43,967 nt of DNA from Phycisphaerales bacterium (GTDB lineage: Bacteria > Bacteroidota > Bacteroidia > Chitinophagales > Chitinophagaceae): the NCBI GenBank assembly GCA_030054025.1, contig JASGCQ010000012.1:1-43967 (forward strand). The letters run 5' to 3'. The notes beneath the pieces were generated by a model, which saw nothing but the letters and a program-made list of their open reading frames with translations, had not been told where the DNA came from and searched no databases. The position numbers and the translations under genes were made by a program. Position 1 is the first letter of the stretch, and every line of letters starts with the position of its first letter. Below are positions 11,983 to 39,550 of this stretch, piece by piece.

Positions 11983-13077
11983 CTACTTCTCCCAATTAGG
12001 GTATTCTGCCTTCCATATAGTGCCGCCCCCTACAAATTTATTGAGGGCTACATTGATGCCAATTTCATTGTAAGGACCGGCAATGCTGTAATAAGAACGT
12101 GCAAAATGGACTTGGAATTTATTGAGATACAGACTAGCTCCAAAAGAATAGCCCACACTGCCTTTCTTGTCTTCTATGGCCATTTCTTTTCGACGCATGT
12201 GGTTGTAGGCTACCGTAATAGCGAGCCTTTTTGCCAGAGTGATTTCTCCACCAAAGAGAAAATGACGAAATAAATTATCACTAAAACTCTTGCTTACAGT
12301 GGTATCTGCAGAGCCAAAAACACTGGTTGTTGTCTTATCTGAAGGATTGTTGTAGCGCACATCCCACTCATACAAATGATGTATCGTAGTGAAGAGGCGC
12401 AGCGGTAAATGTTTGAAACGTTTCGAAATGCCCAATTGCAAATCGAAAGGCATCGGCTCATTGTTGTTTTTGCCCGGGGTATATTGTTGAACCATTTTAC
12501 CCATATTCTTTGCCACAGCACCGATTGTCAAGAAATTGGCGGTGTCTTCATAAGCAATACCTACATCCAACAACAGGGCTGTAGCACTCACCTCTGCCAA
12601 TCGGCTCTGTGCCATTTTGAGCGTGGCACCATAACGCCAACGCTCTTTGTATTGTTTCGACGCAGCAAGTGAAAAAGAATAATCATTTGCTTTGAAATTC
12701 CCTATATCGTTCCCTATATTATCTGTTTGGGTAAAAGAACCATAGCTCAAGTATTGCATCCCTATGGCAAATGCGGTTTTTAATTTAGGTGCATAATAAC
12801 CATAAGCCAGATTCGAGTTGCTGATGCCTGAGTAAAAGCTATTGTAATTTAAAGAAAGCTGATTGTGCAGCGAAGGGCGCATCAATGCAGGATTTTGCAA
12901 GGCAAGCGCAATGTCGTTGCTTGGATTCGCTACATTAAAACCACCTAAAGCAGTGACATGTGGCGAATTAGGCAATCTTAAATATTCAAAGGCAAACTGT
13001 GCACCATTTACTTGTGCTTTTGCACCAAAGCACAAAAAAACAGATAAAAAGGCAGTAGAAATTTTTTTATACACCAT
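11983..13077 (-). CDS. porQ: Type IX secretion system protein PorQ
   Basis: This 364-residue protein has an N-terminal signal peptide (MVYKKISTAFLSVFLCFGAKA) and the PorQ start LRLPNSPHVTALGGFNVANP with DIALALQNPALM. It is a PorV/FadL-like outer-membrane beta-barrel, here with alternating strands throughout. In the type IX secretion system PorQ helps anchor substrates and belongs to the attachment complex with PorU, PorV and PorZ. It lies between fabI (42 bp upstream) and folD, away from other T9SS genes, which is normal because T9SS genes are scattered. PorV2/PorU2 paralogues lie at 33259-39550. Confidence 0.88.
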   Translation of the reverse strand: MVYKKISTAFLSVFLCFGAKAQVNGAQFAFEYLRLPNSPHVTALGGFNVANPSNDIALALQNPALMRPSLHNQLSLNYNSFYSGISNSNLAYGYYAPKLKTAFAIGMQYLSYGSFTQTDNIGNDIGNFKANDYSFSLAASKQYKERWRYGATLKMAQSRLAEVSATALLLDVGIAYEDTANFLTIGAVAKNMGKMVQQYTPGKNNNEPMPFDLQLGISKRFKHLPLRLFTTIHHLYEWDVRYNNPSDKTTTSVFGSADTTVSKSFSDNLFRHFLFGGEITLAKRLAITVAYNHMRRKEMAIEDKKGSVGYSFGASLYLNKFQVHFARSYYSIAGPYNEIGINVALNKFVGGGTIWKAEYPNWEK

Positions 13078-27591: not shown

Positions 27592-28872
27592 TTATTCGAA
27601 AATAGCGAGTGTATAATTGGATTTGCCTTTTTGAATCAAAACATATTTACCGTTCAATAAATGTTGTGTTTGCAAACTAAAATCTTGACCCAAAACTTTT
27701 TCTTTATTGATGCTCACTGCATTGCCTTGTAGGGCTTTGCGTGCTTCTCCTTTTGAAGGATAAATATTTTTTTCTGCCAAAAAACCGATGAGGTCGGCAC
27801 CATTACCATCGAGTACATTTTTGGCTACCAGCACTTGCGGTACGCCTTCCATTACCTCAAGCAGTTGCTGTTCATTCAGCGATTTTAATGCTTCGATTGC
27901 CGAGTTGCTGAATAAAATTTCAGCAGCTTTTTGAGCAAATTGCAAATCTTCTTCACTGTGCACCATAGTCGTCATTTCTGCGGCAAGTGCTTTTTGCAAA
28001 AGTCGTAAATGCGGTGCAGCCTGATGTGCTGCAATCAGTGTTTTTATTTCGCCGATACTTTTAAATGAAAAAATAAGCGACATCTTTTCCGCTTCTGCGT
28101 CTGACAGCTTCAACCAAAATTGATAAAATTGGTAGGGAGAAGTAAGTTTAGCATCCAACCATATATTACCACCTTCTGATTTGCCAAATTTTGTGCCATC
28201 AGATTTTGTAATCAGTGGGCTGGTGAAGGCATAAGCCTCGCCACCACATTTTTTGCGAATAAGCTCTGTACCTGTGGTGATATTGCCCCACTGATCGGCC
28301 CCACCCATTTGCAATTGCACCTGATGTGCTTGGAAAAGGTGTAAAAAATCGTAACCTTGTATCAGTTGATAGCTAAATTCGGTAAATGAAATACCTGTTT
28401 CTAATCGTTTTTTTACCGAATCTTTCGCCTTCATATAATTTACGGTAATCAACTTGCCCGCATCACGAATAAAATCTAAAAAAGAAAAGTTCTTAAACCA
28501 ATCATAGTTGTTCACCAGTACCGCTGCATTTGCTTTTCCTTCAGAAAAGTCTATGAATTTACTCAACTGATTGCGAATACCCGCACAATTTTTTTCAATG
28601 GTCGCCATATCCAACAAGTTGCGTTCGGTAGATTTGCCCGAAGGGTCGCCAATCATACCTGTAGCACCACCTACAAGCGCATAAGGCTTATGACCTGCAC
28701 GTTGTAAACGCATCAATAGGGTAATCGGTAATAGGCTTCCTACATGAAGGCTTTCGGCAGTGGGGTCAAAACCAATATAAGCTGCAATCATCCCTTTTTC
28801 CAATAGTTCTTCTGTACCTGGCATTATATCTTGTACTAGACCTCGCTCTTGCAGCTCTTTGATAAAACTCAT
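27592..28872 (-). CDS. tyrS: Tyrosyl-tRNA synthetase
   Basis: This 426-residue class I aminoacyl-tRNA synthetase charges tRNA-Tyr. The start MSFIKELQERGLVQDIMPGT at ATG 28872 matches the family; the longer upstream frame has no similarity and would start in the promoter. AYIGFDPTAESLHVGSLLPI contains the HIGH-equivalent HVGS. GGATGMIGDPSGKSTER, QMGGADQWGNITTGTELIRK and the KMSKS-equivalent KFGKS in DGTKFGKSEGGNIWLD follow. The C-terminal 70 residues or so form an S4 RNA-binding domain (IYPSKGEARKALQGNAVSIN). Confidence 0.97.
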   Translation of the reverse strand: MSFIKELQERGLVQDIMPGTEELLEKGMIAAYIGFDPTAESLHVGSLLPITLLMRLQRAGHKPYALVGGATGMIGDPSGKSTERNLLDMATIEKNCAGIRNQLSKFIDFSEGKANAAVLVNNYDWFKNFSFLDFIRDAGKLITVNYMKAKDSVKKRLETGISFTEFSYQLIQGYDFLHLFQAHQVQLQMGGADQWGNITTGTELIRKKCGGEAYAFTSPLITKSDGTKFGKSEGGNIWLDAKLTSPYQFYQFWLKLSDAEAEKMSLIFSFKSIGEIKTLIAAHQAAPHLRLLQKALAAEMTTMVHSEEDLQFAQKAAEILFSNSAIEALKSLNEQQLLEVMEGVPQVLVAKNVLDGNGADLIGFLAEKNIYPSKGEARKALQGNAVSINKEKVLGQDFSLQTQHLLNGKYVLIQKGKSNYTLAIFE

Positions 28873-28896
28873 AGCTTTTTTGAAATTTAAGAACTG

Positions 28897-28904
28897 CAAA
28901 GGTA
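28897..28904 (-). promoter_or_regulatory. -7 promoter element of tyrS
   Basis: On the minus strand TACCTTTG is an exact TAnnTTTG match, 24 bp before the tyrS ATG. The -33 region shows no perfect TTTG at the right distance. Confidence 0.45.
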
Positions 28905-29006
28905 ATTTTTGATTTTGTATTTTGGGCTTTGGAATTTCAAGTACGAGCCTTTTATAATAAAACGACACTAATTTATGGTGTATATTTACAACCGAAAAAA
29001 CGAAAA

Positions 29007-31306: not shown

Positions 31307-31804
31307 ATGAAACAATTATTGACTTTAAGCATTGTATTTGTATTGGGTACATTGTCGAGTGTTGCACAGAATCCGGCCAGCTTTACAAACATACGTCAAG
31401 AGCGTAGAGCCAATACTATAGTTCCACCAAAGCCAATAGAGAAGACAACTTTTGCAGAGTTTCAATTTTTGGAAACAGACTTTACCCACGATTTTGGTTC
31501 CATTCCCGAAGGTCCTAAAGTGAAATATGAGTTTAAATTTTTTAACGTAGGTACTGAGCCACTCATCATTACAAATGCACAAGCATCTTGTGGCTGCACA
31601 TCTCCAGTTTTTTCTAAAGAACCCGTATTGCCAGGTAAGATGGGGACGATAATGGTAGAATATACTACTGAAGGTCACTTGGGTAATTTTAATAAGAGCA
31701 TCTATCTTACTTCAAACGCAAAAGTGCCTAATGGACTGCCTACTTTCGAACTTTTTGTAAAAGGCATTGTGTTGGCATCAAGAAAAGATGAAAGAAAACC
31801 CTAA
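31307..31804 (+). CDS. Exported DUF1573 protein, first of three tandem paralogues
   Basis: 165 residues. Signal peptide MKQLLTLSIVFVLGTLSSVAQ, then a DUF1573 domain with an Ig-like (ASH/MSP-type) beta-sandwich. Motifs are FTHDFGSIPEGPKVKYEFKF, PLIITNAQASCGCTSPVFSK, PVLPGKMGTIMVEYTTEGHLG and the closing ELFVKGIV. The conserved CGC pair could form a disulfide or bind metal, but this is unproven. A TAGGAG sequence 6 bp before the ATG is one of the few Shine-Dalgarno-like sites here. Function unknown; a periplasmic or surface adaptor is plausible. Confidence 0.82.
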   Translation: MKQLLTLSIVFVLGTLSSVAQNPASFTNIRQERRANTIVPPKPIEKTTFAEFQFLETDFTHDFGSIPEGPKVKYEFKFFNVGTEPLIITNAQASCGCTSPVFSKEPVLPGKMGTIMVEYTTEGHLGNFNKSIYLTSNAKVPNGLPTFELFVKGIVLASRKDERKP

Positions 31805-31884
31805 ATTGCACCTATTTTAACGCTCAAATAACAGCGAAGACGGCGATTCTACCTATTTTTGTACTCTATAAAATTCAAAAACCT

Positions 31885-32379
31885 ATGAAAAAAATTATTG
31901 TAACGATTTCAGCCCTCATTATTGCAGGAGTTGCGATGGCTCAAAATGCTCCAAAACCCACGGCTGATGAGCCCGGAAAGCTAGTTTCTATCGAAGCTAC
32001 AGCACCCAAAACGACTACCTTGACTACAGAGAATATGTACTTCAAATTTCCTGTTCACGATTTCGGCACTATACAAGAAGGCCCTGCCGCTGAACATGAA
32101 TTTGAATTTACCAATACTGGCAAGGAGCCAATTATTATTTCAAATGTAAGTGCCTCTTGTGGATGTACAACACCTTCTTACTCAAAAGACCCAGTATTGC
32201 CTGGTAAAAAAGGTACAATCAAAGCATCTTATAATACTCAAGGTCGTGTTGATCCGTTTACAAAAACCATTACCATTACTTCTAATGCGGGTATTAAGGT
32301 ATTGACCATTAAAGGTGAGGTAGAAAAAGCACCCTCAGGCTCTGTGCCAGAAAATAACTCTATGATGAAAACGCATTAA
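31885..32379 (+). CDS. Exported DUF1573 protein, second tandem paralogue
   Basis: 164 residues. Signal peptide MKKIIVTISALIIAGVAMAQ, then an unstructured Thr/Pro-rich spacer (residues about 21-50) and the DUF1573 domain: HDFGTIQEGPAAEHEFEFTN, PIIISNVSASCGCTTPSYSK, PVLPGKKGTIKASYNTQGRV and IKVLTIKGEV. It ends with a short polar tail. It is closer to the third copy than to the first in the core (both have AEHxFEFxNTGK and YNTQGRV). The gap to the first copy is 80 bp, with TATTTTTG (31854-31861) that may be a separate promoter. Confidence 0.82.
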   Translation: MKKIIVTISALIIAGVAMAQNAPKPTADEPGKLVSIEATAPKTTTLTTENMYFKFPVHDFGTIQEGPAAEHEFEFTNTGKEPIIISNVSASCGCTTPSYSKDPVLPGKKGTIKASYNTQGRVDPFTKTITITSNAGIKVLTIKGEVEKAPSGSVPENNSMMKTH

Positions 32380-32450
32380 AATCTAGTGTAAAAACCTATC
32401 CAATTGAAAATTTGAATTTTTAAAAACTCACAAAAAAACAAATAGAACAA

Positions 32451-32912
32451 ATGAAAAAAGTACTCCTTGCCTTGTGCATCTTGATTGGTTTGGCAAATGT
32501 TGCTACTGCACAAAACCCTGTAACGGCTTCTGAAGTCAAAGTGGTCAATAAAAATGCCCCTAAGTTCCAATTTATGGACAAAAATGACACCTACGACTTT
32601 GGTAAAGTGCCTGAAGGTCCAGTAGCAGAACATGTTTTTGAATTTAAAAATACAGGAAAACAACCATTGATTATCAGCAATTGCAATGCCTCGTGTGGTT
32701 GTACTACCCCCGAGTGGAACAAAGAACCGATTCTACCGGGCAAAAAAGGAAAAATCACTGTGCGTTATAATACGCAAGGTCGTGTGGGGCCTATTGCCAA
32801 GTCTGTATATGTTACCTCAAATGCAGCACTTGAAGATGGCAAAGATCGTTATGAATTATATATCAAAGGAGAAGTAGTAACTGCACCAAGTGCCGATGCT
32901 CCTAAGAATTAA
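32451..32912 (+). CDS. Exported DUF1573 protein, third tandem paralogue
   Basis: 153 residues. Signal peptide MKKVLLALCILIGLANVATAQ, then DUF1573: TYDFGKVPEGPVAEHVFEFK, PLIISNCNASCGCTTPEWNK, PILPGKKGKITVRYNTQGRV and a closing YELYIKGEV. It has an extra Cys (ISNCNASCGC) compared with the other two. It is 71 bp after the second copy and followed by a clear terminator, so copies 1-3 probably form one unit. Three adjacent diverged copies suggest duplication followed by specialisation. Confidence 0.83.
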   Translation: MKKVLLALCILIGLANVATAQNPVTASEVKVVNKNAPKFQFMDKNDTYDFGKVPEGPVAEHVFEFKNTGKQPLIISNCNASCGCTTPEWNKEPILPGKKGKITVRYNTQGRVGPIAKSVYVTSNAALEDGKDRYELYIKGEVVTAPSADAPKN

Positions 32913-33258: not shown

Positions 33259-34425
33259 ATGAGTAAAAAGATATTTTTTTTAGGAGTGTTTATGATTGCT
33301 GTTGCTAAAGGTTTCGCACAGGCAAAAATATATGTCAACGAATATCTCAATATTGGTGTGGGTGCAAGGGGTTTAGCAATGGGAGGAGCTGTTACGGCTT
33401 CTAGCAATGATGCCAATAGCAGTTATTGGAATCCTGCGGGGCTTACTGGACTTGAACAAGCCCAATTTGCTTTTATGCATGCCGAATACTTTTCGGGTAA
33501 TGCAAAGTATGATTTTTTGGCTATTGCCAAACCCTCGAAAGACCATAAAAGAATTTTTGCATTTTCGGCACTACGCTTCGCAACGGATGATATACCCTAC
33601 ACGATAGACTATGTGCAGCCAGATGGCTCTCTTGACGAAAGTAAATTAAAATCAATTTCTGCAGGAGACTATGCCTTTTTACTTTCCTACGCTTTTCAAT
33701 TAAAAGTATTTAAAAATCCTAATGTAAAATCGAGCTTAGGGGTAAATGCAAAGATAATTTACCGAAATATTGGATCCATGGCAAATGCGTGGGGTGGAGG
33801 CATTGATGTAGGGTGGAAGTTGTCTGGTAGGCATTGGTTGTTGGGCATCGCAGCCAAAGACATTACAACAACCTATACCACATGGAGTTTTAATTTGACA
33901 GACAAAGAAAAAGAAGTATTTGGTCAGACGGGTAATGAAATACCTGTAAAATCTTATGAGGTGATGAATCCAAGATTTAATGTTGGTTTAGGATACAACT
34001 TTATGAAAGCAACAAAAAAGCTGCAGTTGCTTGCAGAATTGAATACCGATATCACGACGGATGGTAAAAGAAATACCCTCATTAAATCGAATACCCTTAG
34101 TATTGACCCAAGGATCGGTTTAGAATTAGGGTACAATAAAACTATTTTTTTTAGAGCGGGTGTTTGTAATATTCAAAAGGTGTTGGACGATAAGGATAGT
34201 ATCAATAAGCGCTATTATACCATTTTTCAGCCTTCAATGGGATTGGGACTTAAAATAGGCTCGCTGAGTGTAGATTATGCTTACACTAGTTTGCAAACAC
34301 AAAATAATCCATTGCTCTCTCATATTATTTCTGCTAAATGGGAATTTTATAGGAAAAAGAAAAAAGAAGTTGAAAAAATAGAGAAACTCGTCAATGATGA
34401 GTCGAAAGCAAGTACCAACAAGTAA
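33259..34425 (+). CDS. porV2: PorV2-type outer-membrane protein (PorV/PorQ family)
   Basis: 388 residues. Signal peptide MSKKIFFLGVFMIAVAKGFAQ, then the PorV-family start YLNIGVGARGLAMGGAVTAS with SNDANSSYWNPAGLTGLEQA, and a FadL-like transmembrane beta-barrel. In the type IX secretion system PorV shuttles cargo to the PorU sortase. PorV2 names a paralogue found next to a PorU2 gene, exactly the arrangement here. An unusual C-terminal tail is charged (about the last 25 residues, YRKKKKEVEKIEKLVNDESK). Only 10 bp separate it from the preferred porU2 start, so the two are co-translated partners. Confidence 0.85.
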   Translation: MSKKIFFLGVFMIAVAKGFAQAKIYVNEYLNIGVGARGLAMGGAVTASSNDANSSYWNPAGLTGLEQAQFAFMHAEYFSGNAKYDFLAIAKPSKDHKRIFAFSALRFATDDIPYTIDYVQPDGSLDESKLKSISAGDYAFLLSYAFQLKVFKNPNVKSSLGVNAKIIYRNIGSMANAWGGGIDVGWKLSGRHWLLGIAAKDITTTYTTWSFNLTDKEKEVFGQTGNEIPVKSYEVMNPRFNVGLGYNFMKATKKLQLLAELNTDITTDGKRNTLIKSNTLSIDPRIGLELGYNKTIFFRAGVCNIQKVLDDKDSINKRYYTIFQPSMGLGLKIGSLSVDYAYTSLQTQNNPLLSHIISAKWEFYRKKKKEVEKIEKLVNDESKASTNK

Positions 34426-34435
34426 ATCTAAGCGT

Positions 34436-37400
34436 ATGCGACAATACTGTTACCTAATTATTTTTGTATTCACTACAATATTATCTTTGAAGAGTTATCA
34501 AACGAATGCTCAATATGGTAATGAATGGATTGATTATTCGAAAACCTATTGGAAATTTAAAGTAGGAACCGAAGGTATATTTCGAATCTCCAAATCAACA
34601 TTAGATGCTATAGGAATTCCGAGTGGCGCAAACGGTAAAGATTTTGTGCTGTATAGAGATGGTAAGGAGATTACGCTTTATACAACAACTAATGGCGTGC
34701 TTGGGATAGGCGATTACATTGAATTTTTTGCTACCGCTAACGATGGGCAATTAGATAAAGAACTATATATCACTGCGGATAAGCATGCAAACCCAAATGC
34801 GAGCTTGTTCTATGATACGGCTACCTATTTTCTAACACTCGACAATCTAAATGCTCATCTTAGATATACCGAAATTACGACACCAATACCCAGCATCCCC
34901 CCAAGCCCATTATCTTATTGTTGGGCTACGGTGATGAACAATACTCGTGGCGCTTTTTCGGAAGGCAAAACAAATGCACCGGTTCAAATAGATTATGGGG
35001 GGATTAAGGAGTTGTACTCTTCCCAATTCGATCAAGGGGAGGGTTTTCTAATTGGTTGGAATGCCAGCATAAATCCTGCCAATATTAGCATCGCGACTCC
35101 GAATTTTGTTAGCGGTTCGATGAATGCTCGTTTGAAAACAGCAAGTATAGCAGAATCTCGCGATTCTATTCACAGGCTTAAGTTGTATTTCAATGGCCTA
35201 TTAAAAGCCGATGAAACCTATGGTAAAAGCGATATCAAGCATTTTGACCTCAGCATTCCCAGCACTGAATTGTCTAACGCCAACACCCTTAATTTTAGCC
35301 ATTACTATACTGGTATTGCCGATATTTTTGGCTTACCATATTGGCAACTAGAGTATCCGAGAGATTGGAATTTTAATGGTCTTGATTATAGCACGTTTAA
35401 AGTAAGTGCCAGCACCAATGCACAGTATATTGAGATTAATAATTTTAATCATGGTGGAGTTGCTCCGAGGTTATATGATATTACCAACAACAAATGGTAT
35501 GCAGGTAATATTAGCGTGTTGGGCAAAACAAGGTTTTATATTGACGCATCCCTAAAGGATATGAATATGGTGCTCTATGCCGCTACCAGCCCCAAGATAT
35601 TCAATCTTACCACTGCTCAACAAAGACTATTTACCGATTATAACAATACTGAAAATCAAGGAAATTACATGATTATCTCGCACAAAAATTTGATGCGTGC
35701 AGTAGGCGGTAAAAATTATATTCAAGAGTATAAAAATTATAGGAGTTCTGTAGCGGGAGGCGGCTACACTGTTACTGTTGCAGACATTGAAGAATTGTAC
35801 GACCAATTTGCATATGGTATTAATACACACCCTAGTTCAATAAGACGCTTTATAGATTTTGGTTTATCAAAATGGACAACAAAACCTAAATATGTATTCT
35901 TGATTGGTAAAGGGGTAACTTATGAATACTATCGAAATTTTATCGCATCAAGTTCTGCAGGCAATTTTGAAGGAATTGTACCAACCTATGGATCTCCAGG
36001 TTCTGATATTGCTTTTGTGACAGACAGGGAAAATTGGAAAATGAAATTAAATATCGGTCGTTTGTCGGCATGGAATACCGATGAAGTAAGAGATTACTTA
36101 AACAAAATCAAATCCTATGAGGCCGCATTGACCCCCTCGCCATTTCCCACTCCAACGACTGAGTTGTGGAAAAAACAAGTACTTCATATTGCAGGCGGAG
36201 ATGGCCCCAACCTAGATTTACAAACACTCACATTGCTGCCTGGCTTAAACAGCGGAAAGGTGCTGATTGAGCAACCCAATACCGGAGGCGTAGTAACAAC
36301 TATTGCAAAAAGTACAAAAGGCCTGCCCACTACAACACAAGACAAAAAAATAGATAGTCTTATTAGTAGCGGCTTGTCTCTGATAACCTACTATGGTCAT
36401 GGGTCGGCTTTTGCGCTAGACTATAATATCAAAGAGCCCTCCGAATTTAATAGTGCACCTAGACTTCCTATCTTCAGCGCCTTTGGTTGTGATATTTCTA
36501 GTATTTATAAAACTGATACTGCCAAAACAATCACCGAAAGGTTCATTGCGGCACCCGTTAGTGGGGCGATAGTCGCCATAGCATCTAATAATTTGGGGTA
36601 TGTCCATATCCATAGCAGATATATCCCTACACTATATAGCGCAATAGCACAAGAATCCTATGGTCAGACTATTGGCGATCAATTTCGTACAGCAAATGAT
36701 AATTTCATGGCTTCGAGTCCGCCAACTGCCTACAGTACTTCTTTAGAGCAAACGCACATGGAATCTCTTATTTTGCAAGGCGATCCTGCCTCGAAATCAA
36801 GTTTTTCTGCCCCTAAACCAGATTATTATGTTGGACCAGAAACCGTTGCTACTATTCCATCTACCATCACTACTTCTTTAGATTCTTTCCAGTTGAGGGT
36901 CACTACATACAACTTAGGTCGTGCCATTACGGACACTATACAAGTTAAAATAGAACATACCAACCCATCTGGCAAGTTAAGCCTGACAAAGACCTATCAG
37001 ATTATCAAACTAAACAATACGAATACCATAACAGTAAAACTTCCTATTGACAAAATAAAAGATTTGGGTATCAATAAATATAAAATTACGGTTGACTATG
37101 ATGGTCATTATGATGAACTATCAGAAGCTAACAATACCACAACACTAGAAGTATTTGTCTTGTCCGACAATATTGTTCCAATATATCCTTTCGATTTTAG
37201 TATAGTGTATAATAATGATCTTACACTCAAAGCTTCGACCCTCAATCCTTTCAAAGAGCTGAGAAAATATCGTTTTGAAATGGATACTACAGAATTATTC
37301 AATAGTCCATTAAAACTACAAACTATCATTTCAGGTAGCGGTGGTGTGGTAAAATGGAAACCCAACATTGTGCTGCAAGACAGTATGGTGTATTATTGGC

Positions 37401-39550
37401 GTACAAGCATTGATAGCAGCTTGAGTGGTGGGAATTTTATTTGGCAAAACAGTTCTTTTGTTTATTTAAAAAATGGCTCTGCGGGATGGAATCAATCTCA
37501 TTATTACCAATACAAGTACAATAATATGGAGGGTTCGATTTATGATGAGAGTCGGAGATTTTCGTATGGCAAATTGAATGTGTTGCTACAGGTAAAGAAT
37601 ACAATAACAGGATTGTCTTCTCCTTACACTAAGTACGATAATCCAGACTACAACAAAGTACTTAGAAATGGTAATGATTTGCAGCGTTATGATTGTTATC
37701 CTCCTATTTCAATTCAAATTATGGTATTCGATACTACCTTAGGAAATGCTTGGGCTAATCCACCCGGCGGTATGTCAGGATCGAAGCCTAGTTGTCCTCC
37801 TCTCTTCGCACGAAATATTAATTGTTTTAGCTTCAATTTGAATACTGCTGCAAGTAGAAATAACGCACGAAAATTTTTGGATAGCATACCCAATGGGTAT
37901 TATATTTTGATCAAGAACTGTATTGCTTACAATATTTGGGAGAATTATTTTGTAGATACTTGGAAAAGTGATACTGCTACTTACGGTAGTGGCAAATCAC
38001 TTTATCATTCTATGCGTAACCTTGGTTTTAATCGAATAGATTCATTTTATCAAACCAGGGCGTTTTCCATGATTTGTAAAAAAGGTGCTACAGATTATCC
38101 TGTCCAACAGAACTTTGCTACAGGAATTAATGATATTCTAGATACAACCTATGTTATCCCGATTAGCGATGTAAGCGGCAATATGAACAGTGTGGTTGTA
38201 GGGCCTGCAAGTAATTGGAAAACACTTAAATGGAGAACATCTTTATTTGTTGATACATTTAGTAGTGCCGATAGTTCTTCCGTAAAAATTACAGGTATTG
38301 ATAAGTTTAATAACGAAGCTTTTCTTTATGAAGGTCCTGCTCGTGATACTAATTTGAATTTTATCAATGCCACAAACTACCCCAAGTTAAAATTGAAATG
38401 GTATAGTAGGGATACCTTATACCACACCTCTCCACAGCTTGATTATTGGAGAATTTTGTACGACCCCTTACCCGAAGCCGCGCTCAATCCCTCTGCATAT
38501 TATGCGTTTACCGATAGTCTAAATGTGGGACAAATGATGAATCTGGAAACGACTGTAGAGACCCTCACCGAATTACCTATGGATAGTATGCTTGTTCGTT
38601 ATAAAGTAATTGATGCAAATGGAGTCAATCATCTGCTTGCAGATAAAAAATATCGAAAATTAAGTGGAAATGATACCCTGCATATAGGGGTCAGCTTCGA
38701 TCCCAAATCTTATCCTGGAAAAAACTTCTTATTCATCGAAGCTAATCCGGACAATACGCAGCCTGAACAATATCATCCAAACAATTTGGGTTATATCCCA
38801 TTCACGATTAAGTCGGATGTACACAACCCTGTTTTAGATGTTACATTTGATGGAACGCATATCTTGGATAAAGACATAGTTTCTGCCAAGCCCTTCATTA
38901 AGGTATTGCTCCGCGACGAAAATAAATATCTTGCCTTAAACGATACCTCTTCGATGCAACTCTCTATTCGTTACCCGAGCGACGCTATAAATACAAAACG
39001 TACAATCAATTTTGATGGCAGTACCTGTAAGTTTGTTCCTGCGGATATGAGTGCAGGGAAAAATGAGGCCTTCATTGAATACCGACCCAACTTTACGGAA
39101 GATGGTATTTACCAGCTTTTCGCAAAAGGAAAAGATGTTTCGGGTAATGATGCCGGTGCAAGCCAAGAATATTCTATCTCCTTCGAAGTGGTGAATAAAT
39201 CTACTATTTCTAACTTGGTCAATTATCCCAATCCATTCTCTACTTCCACAGCATTTGTGTTTACGATTACTGGATGGCAATTGCCCTCTCAATTCAAAAT
39301 TCAAATCCTCAGTGTGAGTGGTAAAGTAGTGCGTGAAATTACGAAGCAAGAATTGGGTAATATTCATATCGGAAGAAACATTACAGAGTACAAGTGGGAT
39401 GGTAAAGACCAGTATGGACAATTGTTGGGCAATGGGGTTTATCTCTATCGTGTGGTCACCTCTATTAATGGCGATGATATAGAACATCGTAATAGTGGGG
39501 TAGATAAATTTTACAAAAATGGCTTTAGTAAAATGTATATCATGCGCTAA
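34436..39550 (+). CDS. porU2: PorU2-type giant cell-surface C25 peptidase (putative T9SS sortase)
   Basis: 1704 residues from ATG 34436; an earlier ATG at 34394 overlaps porV2 but would put a polar stretch before the signal peptide (MRQYCYLIIFVFTTILSLKS, ending TNAQ). The central domain (about 400-790) is a gingipain/C25-like peptidase with candidate catalytic His655 in TYYGHGSAFALDYN and Cys685 in FSAFGCDISSIY. Ig/CARDB-like domains (about 800-1550) follow. The last 100 residues are a FlgD-Ig/T9SS sorting-type domain (NLVNYPNPF; VSGKVVREI; WDGKDQYGQLLGNGVYLYRV). PorU removes C-terminal sorting domains and attaches cargo to A-LPS; PorU2 is a longer paralogue, here paired with porV2. Its own substrates are unknown. 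Confidence 0.85.
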   Translation: MRQYCYLIIFVFTTILSLKSYQTNAQYGNEWIDYSKTYWKFKVGTEGIFRISKSTLDAIGIPSGANGKDFVLYRDGKEITLYTTTNGVLGIGDYIEFFATANDGQLDKELYITADKHANPNASLFYDTATYFLTLDNLNAHLRYTEITTPIPSIPPSPLSYCWATVMNNTRGAFSEGKTNAPVQIDYGGIKELYSSQFDQGEGFLIGWNASINPANISIATPNFVSGSMNARLKTASIAESRDSIHRLKLYFNGLLKADETYGKSDIKHFDLSIPSTELSNANTLNFSHYYTGIADIFGLPYWQLEYPRDWNFNGLDYSTFKVSASTNAQYIEINNFNHGGVAPRLYDITNNKWYAGNISVLGKTRFYIDASLKDMNMVLYAATSPKIFNLTTAQQRLFTDYNNTENQGNYMIISHKNLMRAVGGKNYIQEYKNYRSSVAGGGYTVTVADIEELYDQFAYGINTHPSSIRRFIDFGLSKWTTKPKYVFLIGKGVTYEYYRNFIASSSAGNFEGIVPTYGSPGSDIAFVTDRENWKMKLNIGRLSAWNTDEVRDYLNKIKSYEAALTPSPFPTPTTELWKKQVLHIAGGDGPNLDLQTLTLLPGLNSGKVLIEQPNTGGVVTTIAKSTKGLPTTTQDKKIDSLISSGLSLITYYGHGSAFALDYNIKEPSEFNSAPRLPIFSAFGCDISSIYKTDTAKTITERFIAAPVSGAIVAIASNNLGYVHIHSRYIPTLYSAIAQESYGQTIGDQFRTANDNFMASSPPTAYSTSLEQTHMESLILQGDPASKSSFSAPKPDYYVGPETVATIPSTITTSLDSFQLRVTTYNLGRAITDTIQVKIEHTNPSGKLSLTKTYQIIKLNNTNTITVKLPIDKIKDLGINKYKITVDYDGHYDELSEANNTTTLEVFVLSDNIVPIYPFDFSIVYNNDLTLKASTLNPFKELRKYRFEMDTTELFNSPLKLQTIISGSGGVVKWKPNIVLQDSMVYYWRTSIDSSLSGGNFIWQNSSFVYLKNGSAGWNQSHYYQYKYNNMEGSIYDESRRFSYGKLNVLLQVKNTITGLSSPYTKYDNPDYNKVLRNGNDLQRYDCYPPISIQIMVFDTTLGNAWANPPGGMSGSKPSCPPLFARNINCFSFNLNTAASRNNARKFLDSIPNGYYILIKNCIAYNIWENYFVDTWKSDTATYGSGKSLYHSMRNLGFNRIDSFYQTRAFSMICKKGATDYPVQQNFATGINDILDTTYVIPISDVSGNMNSVVVGPASNWKTLKWRTSLFVDTFSSADSSSVKITGIDKFNNEAFLYEGPARDTNLNFINATNYPKLKLKWYSRDTLYHTSPQLDYWRILYDPLPEAALNPSAYYAFTDSLNVGQMMNLETTVETLTELPMDSMLVRYKVIDANGVNHLLADKKYRKLSGNDTLHIGVSFDPKSYPGKNFLFIEANPDNTQPEQYHPNNLGYIPFTIKSDVHNPVLDVTFDGTHILDKDIVSAKPFIKVLLRDENKYLALNDTSSMQLSIRYPSDAINTKRTINFDGSTCKFVPADMSAGKNEAFIEYRPNFTEDGIYQLFAKGKDVSGNDAGASQEYSISFEVVNKSTISNLVNYPNPFSTSTAFVFTITGWQLPSQFKIQILSVSGKVVREITKQELGNIHIGRNITEYKWDGKDQYGQLLGNGVYLYRVVTSINGDDIEHRNSGVDKFYKNGFSKMYIMR

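Follow-up and report, generated by a model that had tools for sequence, protein, structure and literature searches.

We analysed a 43,967-nt stretch of DNA (the window: contig JASGCQ010000012.1 of GenBank assembly GCA_030054025.1, family Chitinophagaceae) that carries a pair of genes, porV2 and porU2, related to the attachment machinery of the type IX secretion system (T9SS). The porV2 gene (33259-34425, + strand) encodes a 388-aa outer-membrane barrel of the PorV/PorQ family with a signal peptide, and porU2 (34436-39550, + strand) encodes a 1704-aa C25 peptidase. Counted from the ATG at 34436, which precedes a typical Sec signal peptide, the two genes are 10 bp apart, in agreement with the original prediction made from the sequence of this locus. 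An in-frame ATG at 34394 gives a 1718-aa variant of PorU2 (34394-39550, +) that overlaps porV2. PorV2 scored 419.5 bits (cut-off 325) against the NCBIfam model NF052325, "putative type IX sorting system protein PorV2", and 100.7 bits, over cut-off, against NF033709; it stayed below the canonical PorV model NF033710 (37 bits, cut-off 250) and the canonical PorQ model NF033711 (55 bits, cut-off 220). PorU2 scored 684 bits (cut-off 450) against NF052324, "putative type IX secretion system sortase PorU2", over residues 23-914 (34460-37135, +), which cover the PorU-like N-terminal domains and the C25 domain, and 163 bits against the canonical PorU model NF033707 (cut-off 420). The pair is thus not new, and the names used in the original prediction are existing NCBIfam family names: the two proteins are clear members of the existing, functionally unstudied PorV2 and PorU2 families, with the same gene pairing, both curated cut-offs exceeded and no structural difference, and function there is given as putative. 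A full-text search of 5.39 million open-access papers found no work on PorU2 or PorV2; the sole T9SS paper matched (PMC10994853) does not mention PorU and is not about a PorV2 protein. With the window, this pair, named yet unstudied, gains a further member.

The catalytic center of PorU2 is conserved. The C25 domain (PF01364) was matched over cut-off at residues 425-800 of 1718 (35666-36793, +; E=1e-52, 185 bits). The dyad lies in a GHG...GCD motif, with the His codon CAT at 36398-36400 (+; His655 of 1704, 669 of 1718) and the Cys codon TGT at 36488-36490 (+; Cys685 of 1704, 699 of 1718). Both residues, earlier named as candidates for catalysis, were invariant in 57/57 aligned homologues, including those from genomes that lack the translocon protein SprA. 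A quick unrooted tree of a subsample (IQ-TREE, LG+G4), calculated on the common N-terminal and C25 region, placed 21/21 canonical PorU proteins, the host's own PorU among them, in one clade and 27 Bacteroidia PorU2 proteins, including the window protein, in a separate clade, each with SH-aLRT 100. A position inside canonical PorU, which the original prediction had named as fatal to it, was therefore not found. Longer PorU/PorU2-like proteins (about 1500-2000 aa; L136-L149) from other classes of the phylum fell near or between the two clades. Two PorU2 paralogues were also recorded: one in genome G126 (L156 5942-10846) has a bona fide type A C-terminal domain (CTD; 53.7 bits) and looks like secreted cargo, and one in G091 (L155 7957-12750) stands in tandem with porV2-porU2 and has no detectable CTD. 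In genome G115, which has retained canonical PorU, the PorU2 gene (G115:C3:277109-279757) is disrupted by a TGA and a TAG stop codon.

Canonical PorU cuts type A CTDs and moves cargo onto anionic lipopolysaccharide as part of the attachment complex that it forms with PorV, PorQ and PorZ. Its own CTD stays uncleaved, and in P. gingivalis damage to this domain causes PorU to build up in the periplasm (PMC11285876, PMC8545088). The host genome of the window (2.49 Mb) carries SprA (C8:6553-13812), PorU, PorV and PorQ and approximately 70 matches over the type A CTD cut-off, so that the absence of the remaining T9SS, the other outcome named as fatal, was not observed either. Its second C25 protein is the canonical PorU (1181 bits), encoded before PorV on contig C126; this order is the reverse of porV2-porU2, and with 1268 aa against 1704 aa this PorU is indeed much the shorter protein, as had been stated for canonical PorU in general. 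The two systems have in common the N-terminal domains, the C25 domain with its His/Cys dyad, immunoglobulin-like (Ig) domains, a CTD-type C-terminus (apparently uncleaved in PorU2) and a peptidase gene adjoining a gene for a PorV-family barrel. They differ in the separate clade of PorU2, in an extra arm of approximately 550 residues, and in that PorV2-PorU2 also occurs in SprA-less genomes.

Two stretches of the PorU2 profile aligned to PorU, residues ~31-770 and the final ~220 residues, and the arm between these parts contains Ig domains, a domain resembling FAM3 and the POMGNT1 stem, and a beta domain. Hidden Markov models (HMMs) of individual segments, together with an AlphaFold2 model of residues 810-1718 (pLDDT 87.6, pTM 0.62), delimited the region undetected in canonical PorU to 36821-38470 (+; edges approximate). 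The HMM of segment 810-1024 (Ig/CARDB) matched 57/57 PorU2 proteins, and those of segments 1059-1259 and 1261-1359 matched 53/57 each; none of the three matched any protein of the PorU set (21 PorU). Residues 1061-1259 adopt the POMGNT1 stem fold in the model (5ggj_B; VIA-align Z 16.3, rmsd 2.4 over 146 residues), and Pfam ILEI, the FAM3 family of the same fold, matched 13/43 PorU2 members with a best E of 4.8e-6. This lectin-fold domain (residues 1059-1259) is encoded at 37568-38170 (+). POMGNT1/FAM3 domains bind GlcNAc and other sugars, with Arg129, Asp179 and Arg207 of POMGNT1 involved (PMC9802357). Glycan binding was accordingly considered for PorU2; the domain has a suitable fold, but of the key residues the only one that can be placed is not conserved, since the position most like Arg207 by sequence is Arg in 17/43 members. 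Sugar binding by this domain is thus a possibility rather than a result.

Downstream of the arm, two Ig-like domains common to PorU (38471-39196, +) correspond to residues 791-1051 of PorU in 6za2. By sequence the match is weak, their HMM hitting 2 of the PorU set, and by structure the two-domain arrangement of residues 1361-1601 is only loosely alike (Z 9.8, rmsd 14.0 over 208 residues). A CARDB domain was recognised in the model at residues 1355-1475 (Z 14.2). The Pfam matches of PorU2 to CARDB (E=0.0039), FlgD_ig (E=1.2e-4) and ILEI were all below Pfam cut-offs. The PorU-like C-terminal domain (FlgD_ig/CTD-type; 39212-39547, +), to which the PorU C-terminus from the PDB was aligned, is the proposed dock for PorV2. 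The HMM of this segment matched 21/21 PorU proteins, and no part of PorU2 is more conserved than its last ~110 residues. Against the type A CTD model TIGR04183, window PorU2 scored 20.1 bits by hmmscan (cut-off 23) and 26 bits in the genome search, and the host's canonical PorU scored 22.7-24.5 bits. PorU2 keeps this PorU-like domain, apparently uncleaved.

The partner, PorV2, is predicted to be a 14-stranded barrel (AlphaFold2, pLDDT 88.9), and the solved folds closest to it were those of PorV in the T9SS translocon (8gl6_F, 6h3i_F). In 48 examined loci, whose hosts range from Chitinophagales to Flavobacteriales and Cyclobacteriaceae, porV2 is the gene directly before porU2, and the conserved adjacency extends over Chitinophagales, Flavobacteriales and Cytophagales. 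Because it holds this position in nearly every locus where both genes are complete, the adjacency is not chance. Coevolution of PorV2 with the PorU2 CTD was also considered as evidence of docking. The partial Mantel correlation was positive for the CTD (0.31, 0/500 permutations); since the catalytic domain (0.41) and the N-terminus (0.27) also correlate, it is not specific to docking.

We then examined how PorU2 is distributed relative to canonical PorU and SprA, searching for the three proteins separately in 294 genomes of the window's family, 248 of them of good quality. Nearly all genomes with PorU2 also have SprA. Among the 241 good SprA-positive genomes, 108 carry both PorU and PorU2, 49 PorU alone, 72 PorU2 alone and 12 neither. 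The two proteins appeared complementary over these 241 genomes (Fisher p=0.005); this signal was gone when one genome per genus was counted (both 40, PorU2 alone 24, PorU alone 19, neither 8; p=0.63). PorU and PorU2 thus behave as independent genes by genus. Genomes with PorU2 alone can be rich in type A CTD matches (52 in G091, 96 in G126). Genomes with SprA and neither peptidase (G301, G308, G309, G343, G348, G382, G400 and five others) imply that the translocon need not be accompanied by any recognised C25 sortase.

PorU2 also persists where the translocon is missing. In one genus (g10), neither SprA over cut-off nor canonical PorU was detected in any of five species, three represented by single contigs (G269, G405, G522) and two by genomes 99-100% complete (G474, G562). 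Four of the five (G269, G405, G474, G562) encode a full-length PorU2 (1684-1694 aa) beside PorV2, so PorU2 does not occur only alongside SprA, as a component of the T9SS would. In G269, no PorV or PorQ was found and PorV2 is the sole PorV/PorQ-family protein; a genome-wide search gave a single weak CTD match (E 2.2e-4), probably the C-terminus of PorU2 itself, which scores 17.8 bits. Identity among the g10 PorU2 proteins is down to 52-63%, and they have not decayed. Relaxed selection after the loss of SprA was looked for and not seen: scaled to tyrosyl-tRNA synthetase (TyrRS), the PorU2 distance ratio is 2.4-2.6 in three of the four species, within the 1.6-3.0 of SprA-positive relatives (dN/dS was unusable, synonymous sites being saturated). 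The last 110 residues, which are homologous to the domain that serves PorU-type proteins for export and retention, are 86% identical in g10 compared with 54% for the rest of the protein, and 74% compared with 40% elsewhere, as expected of a docking domain. Because PorU2 is intact, evolves at a normal rate and retains a highly conserved C-terminus, the pair is kept under selection in g10 after the loss of the translocon.

We propose, at a probability of roughly one half, that PorU2 is an active peptidase/transpeptidase of the PorU type that is anchored by PorV2 and whose role can persist after the T9SS translocon is lost. By homology with the canonical system, PorV2 as a FadL/PorV-type barrel would anchor PorU2 through the uncleaved C-terminal domain of the latter, as PorV does PorU, and PorU2 would be an active clan CD cysteine peptidase/transpeptidase that cuts proteins and possibly re-attaches them. 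The extra arm between the catalytic and anchoring parts may set the reach of the enzyme and its choice of partners. The chemistry would be that of PorU, tied neither to canonical PorU nor strictly to SprA, and the substrates would therefore not need to be T9SS type A cargo. In T9SS genomes PorU2 may act on cargo at the surface, alone or beside PorU; in g10 it would either reach the surface by another route or act at the periplasmic side of the outer membrane.

Several observations weigh against this proposal. The SprA-less case is one genus and probably one loss event, and the fifth g10 species, G522, has lost PorU2 too. The SprA-less genomes G002, G230, G238, G010, G402 and G522 are without PorU2; in G426, which is related to the window and 92% complete, both PorU and PorU2 are present, and its SprA gap may be due to assembly. 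Since the SprA-less genomes examined outside g10, G426 apart, and G522 lack PorU2, the usual association with the T9SS is real: dependence is the rule and g10 the exception. Nor is the pair obligate, because Flavobacteriaceae without PorU2 carry PorV2 over cut-off and five genomes (G049, G146, G186, G190, G249) have PorU2 and no PorV2 over cut-off. Binding to PorV2, cutting and surface exposure of PorU2 are all predictions. Finally, no route by which PorU2 could cross the outer membrane without SprA is known: CTD-damaged PorU of P. gingivalis is found to accumulate in the periplasm (PMC11285876).

The distribution nevertheless amounts to a natural experiment, with many T9SS genomes in which PorU2 is the sole candidate for a PorU-type sortase and one genus that keeps the pair after losing SprA. 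Survival in a genus without the secretion pore means that the pair may not be a mere spare part of the T9SS. Species without T9SS genes have been reported to lack predicted CTD proteins as well (PMC11285876), and PorU2, given its CTD-type C-terminus, would depart from this co-absence. The targets of PorU2 and its need for the T9SS can be tested directly in cultivable bacteria; independence from SprA and the FAM3-like domain of the PorU2-specific arm most deserve the attention of specialists.

A more far-reaching reading, possible but tentative, is that PorV2-PorU2 is a T9SS-independent machine for processing or conjugation at the outer membrane; its substrates would lie outside the T9SS (lipoproteins or other outer-membrane proteins, for example), and it would have only ancestry in common with the T9SS. 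It is less likely than our main proposal that the pair is instead a second T9SS attachment complex, fed by SprA, in which PorV2 shuttles and PorU2 sorts a distinct class of cargo, essentially as the original prediction had it. The SprA, PorU, PorV, PorQ and type A CTD matches of the host genome and the presence of SprA in nearly all PorU2 genomes would fit, and PorP/SprF paralogues offer a precedent as dedicated shuttles for type B cargo (PMC12618676, PMC9143113). Those proteins are likewise FadL-type T9SS barrels, each with its own partner; they belong to different families, and their partners are adhesin-like cargo rather than C25 peptidases. The g10 genomes without SprA or PorU and the orphan PorV2 of Flavobacteriaceae speak against such a complex, nor was any class of cargo or type of CTD found to track with PorU2. 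The observations of the original prediction hold, and its interpretation is supported in part: what stands of the second sortase module is a distinct pair with a retained dyad in a T9SS genome; strict T9SS membership conflicts with g10, and the distinct class of cargo found no evidence.

It is unlikely that PorU2 is an interchangeable substitute for PorU on ordinary type A cargo. This would account for the 72 SprA-positive genomes with PorU2 alone, including the CTD-rich G091 and G126, but PorU and PorU2 are independent by genus, and with 108 genomes keeping both and 12 SprA-positive genomes having neither, neither protein is strictly required. Least probable is that PorU2 is a cell-surface protease used in the manner of gingipains, with no sortase role and PorV2 merely as an anchor, since PorU2 proper has the PorU-type N- and C-terminal domains, a dedicated barrel partner and a conserved housekeeping locus, even though C25 includes the gingipains and the CTD-bearing paralogue of G126 resembles cargo.

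The neighbouring genes revealed no function: only tyrS in Chitinophagales and lptB/pssA, with or without an Lnb-domain gene, in Flavobacteriales recur. In Chitinophagales, the divergent neighbour of porV2 is usually tyrS (the same gene family at position -2 in 20 loci), also in the SprA-less genus, which indicates vertical descent; in the window, tyrS (27592-28968, - strand) sits five predicted genes upstream of porV2. Metagenome-assembled genomes of Flavobacteriales have the order lptB-pssA-porV2-porU2, which in L058 and L084 continues with the Lnb-domain gene. The corresponding site of Flavobacterium and a relative reads lptB-pssA-porV2-Lnb, without porU2 (L165 8544-10782 and L166 8409-10672; compare L058 6890-14370). 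A lasso-peptide-like cluster of nucleotidyltransferase, ABC transporter, transglutaminase-like protein and asparagine synthase genes adjoins porU2 in several genomes (L150 14667-20000, L151 926-6525, L052 6990-13786; Pfam on L150 only). The window also encodes the canonical attachment-complex protein PorQ (11983-13077, - strand; NF033711 321 bits, cut-off 220). A third PorV/PorQ-family barrel of the host genome (L037, contig C110, 4465-9747; NF033709 123 bits, no equivalog over cut-off) neighbours two proteins, one of 1353 aa whose end is weakly CTD-like and one of 1256 aa that resembles a TonB receptor. Upstream of porV2 in the window, at 31307-32912, lie in tandem three secreted paralogues, each some 160 aa long, that are found in the closest relatives only; DUF1573 was confirmed for the first of them.

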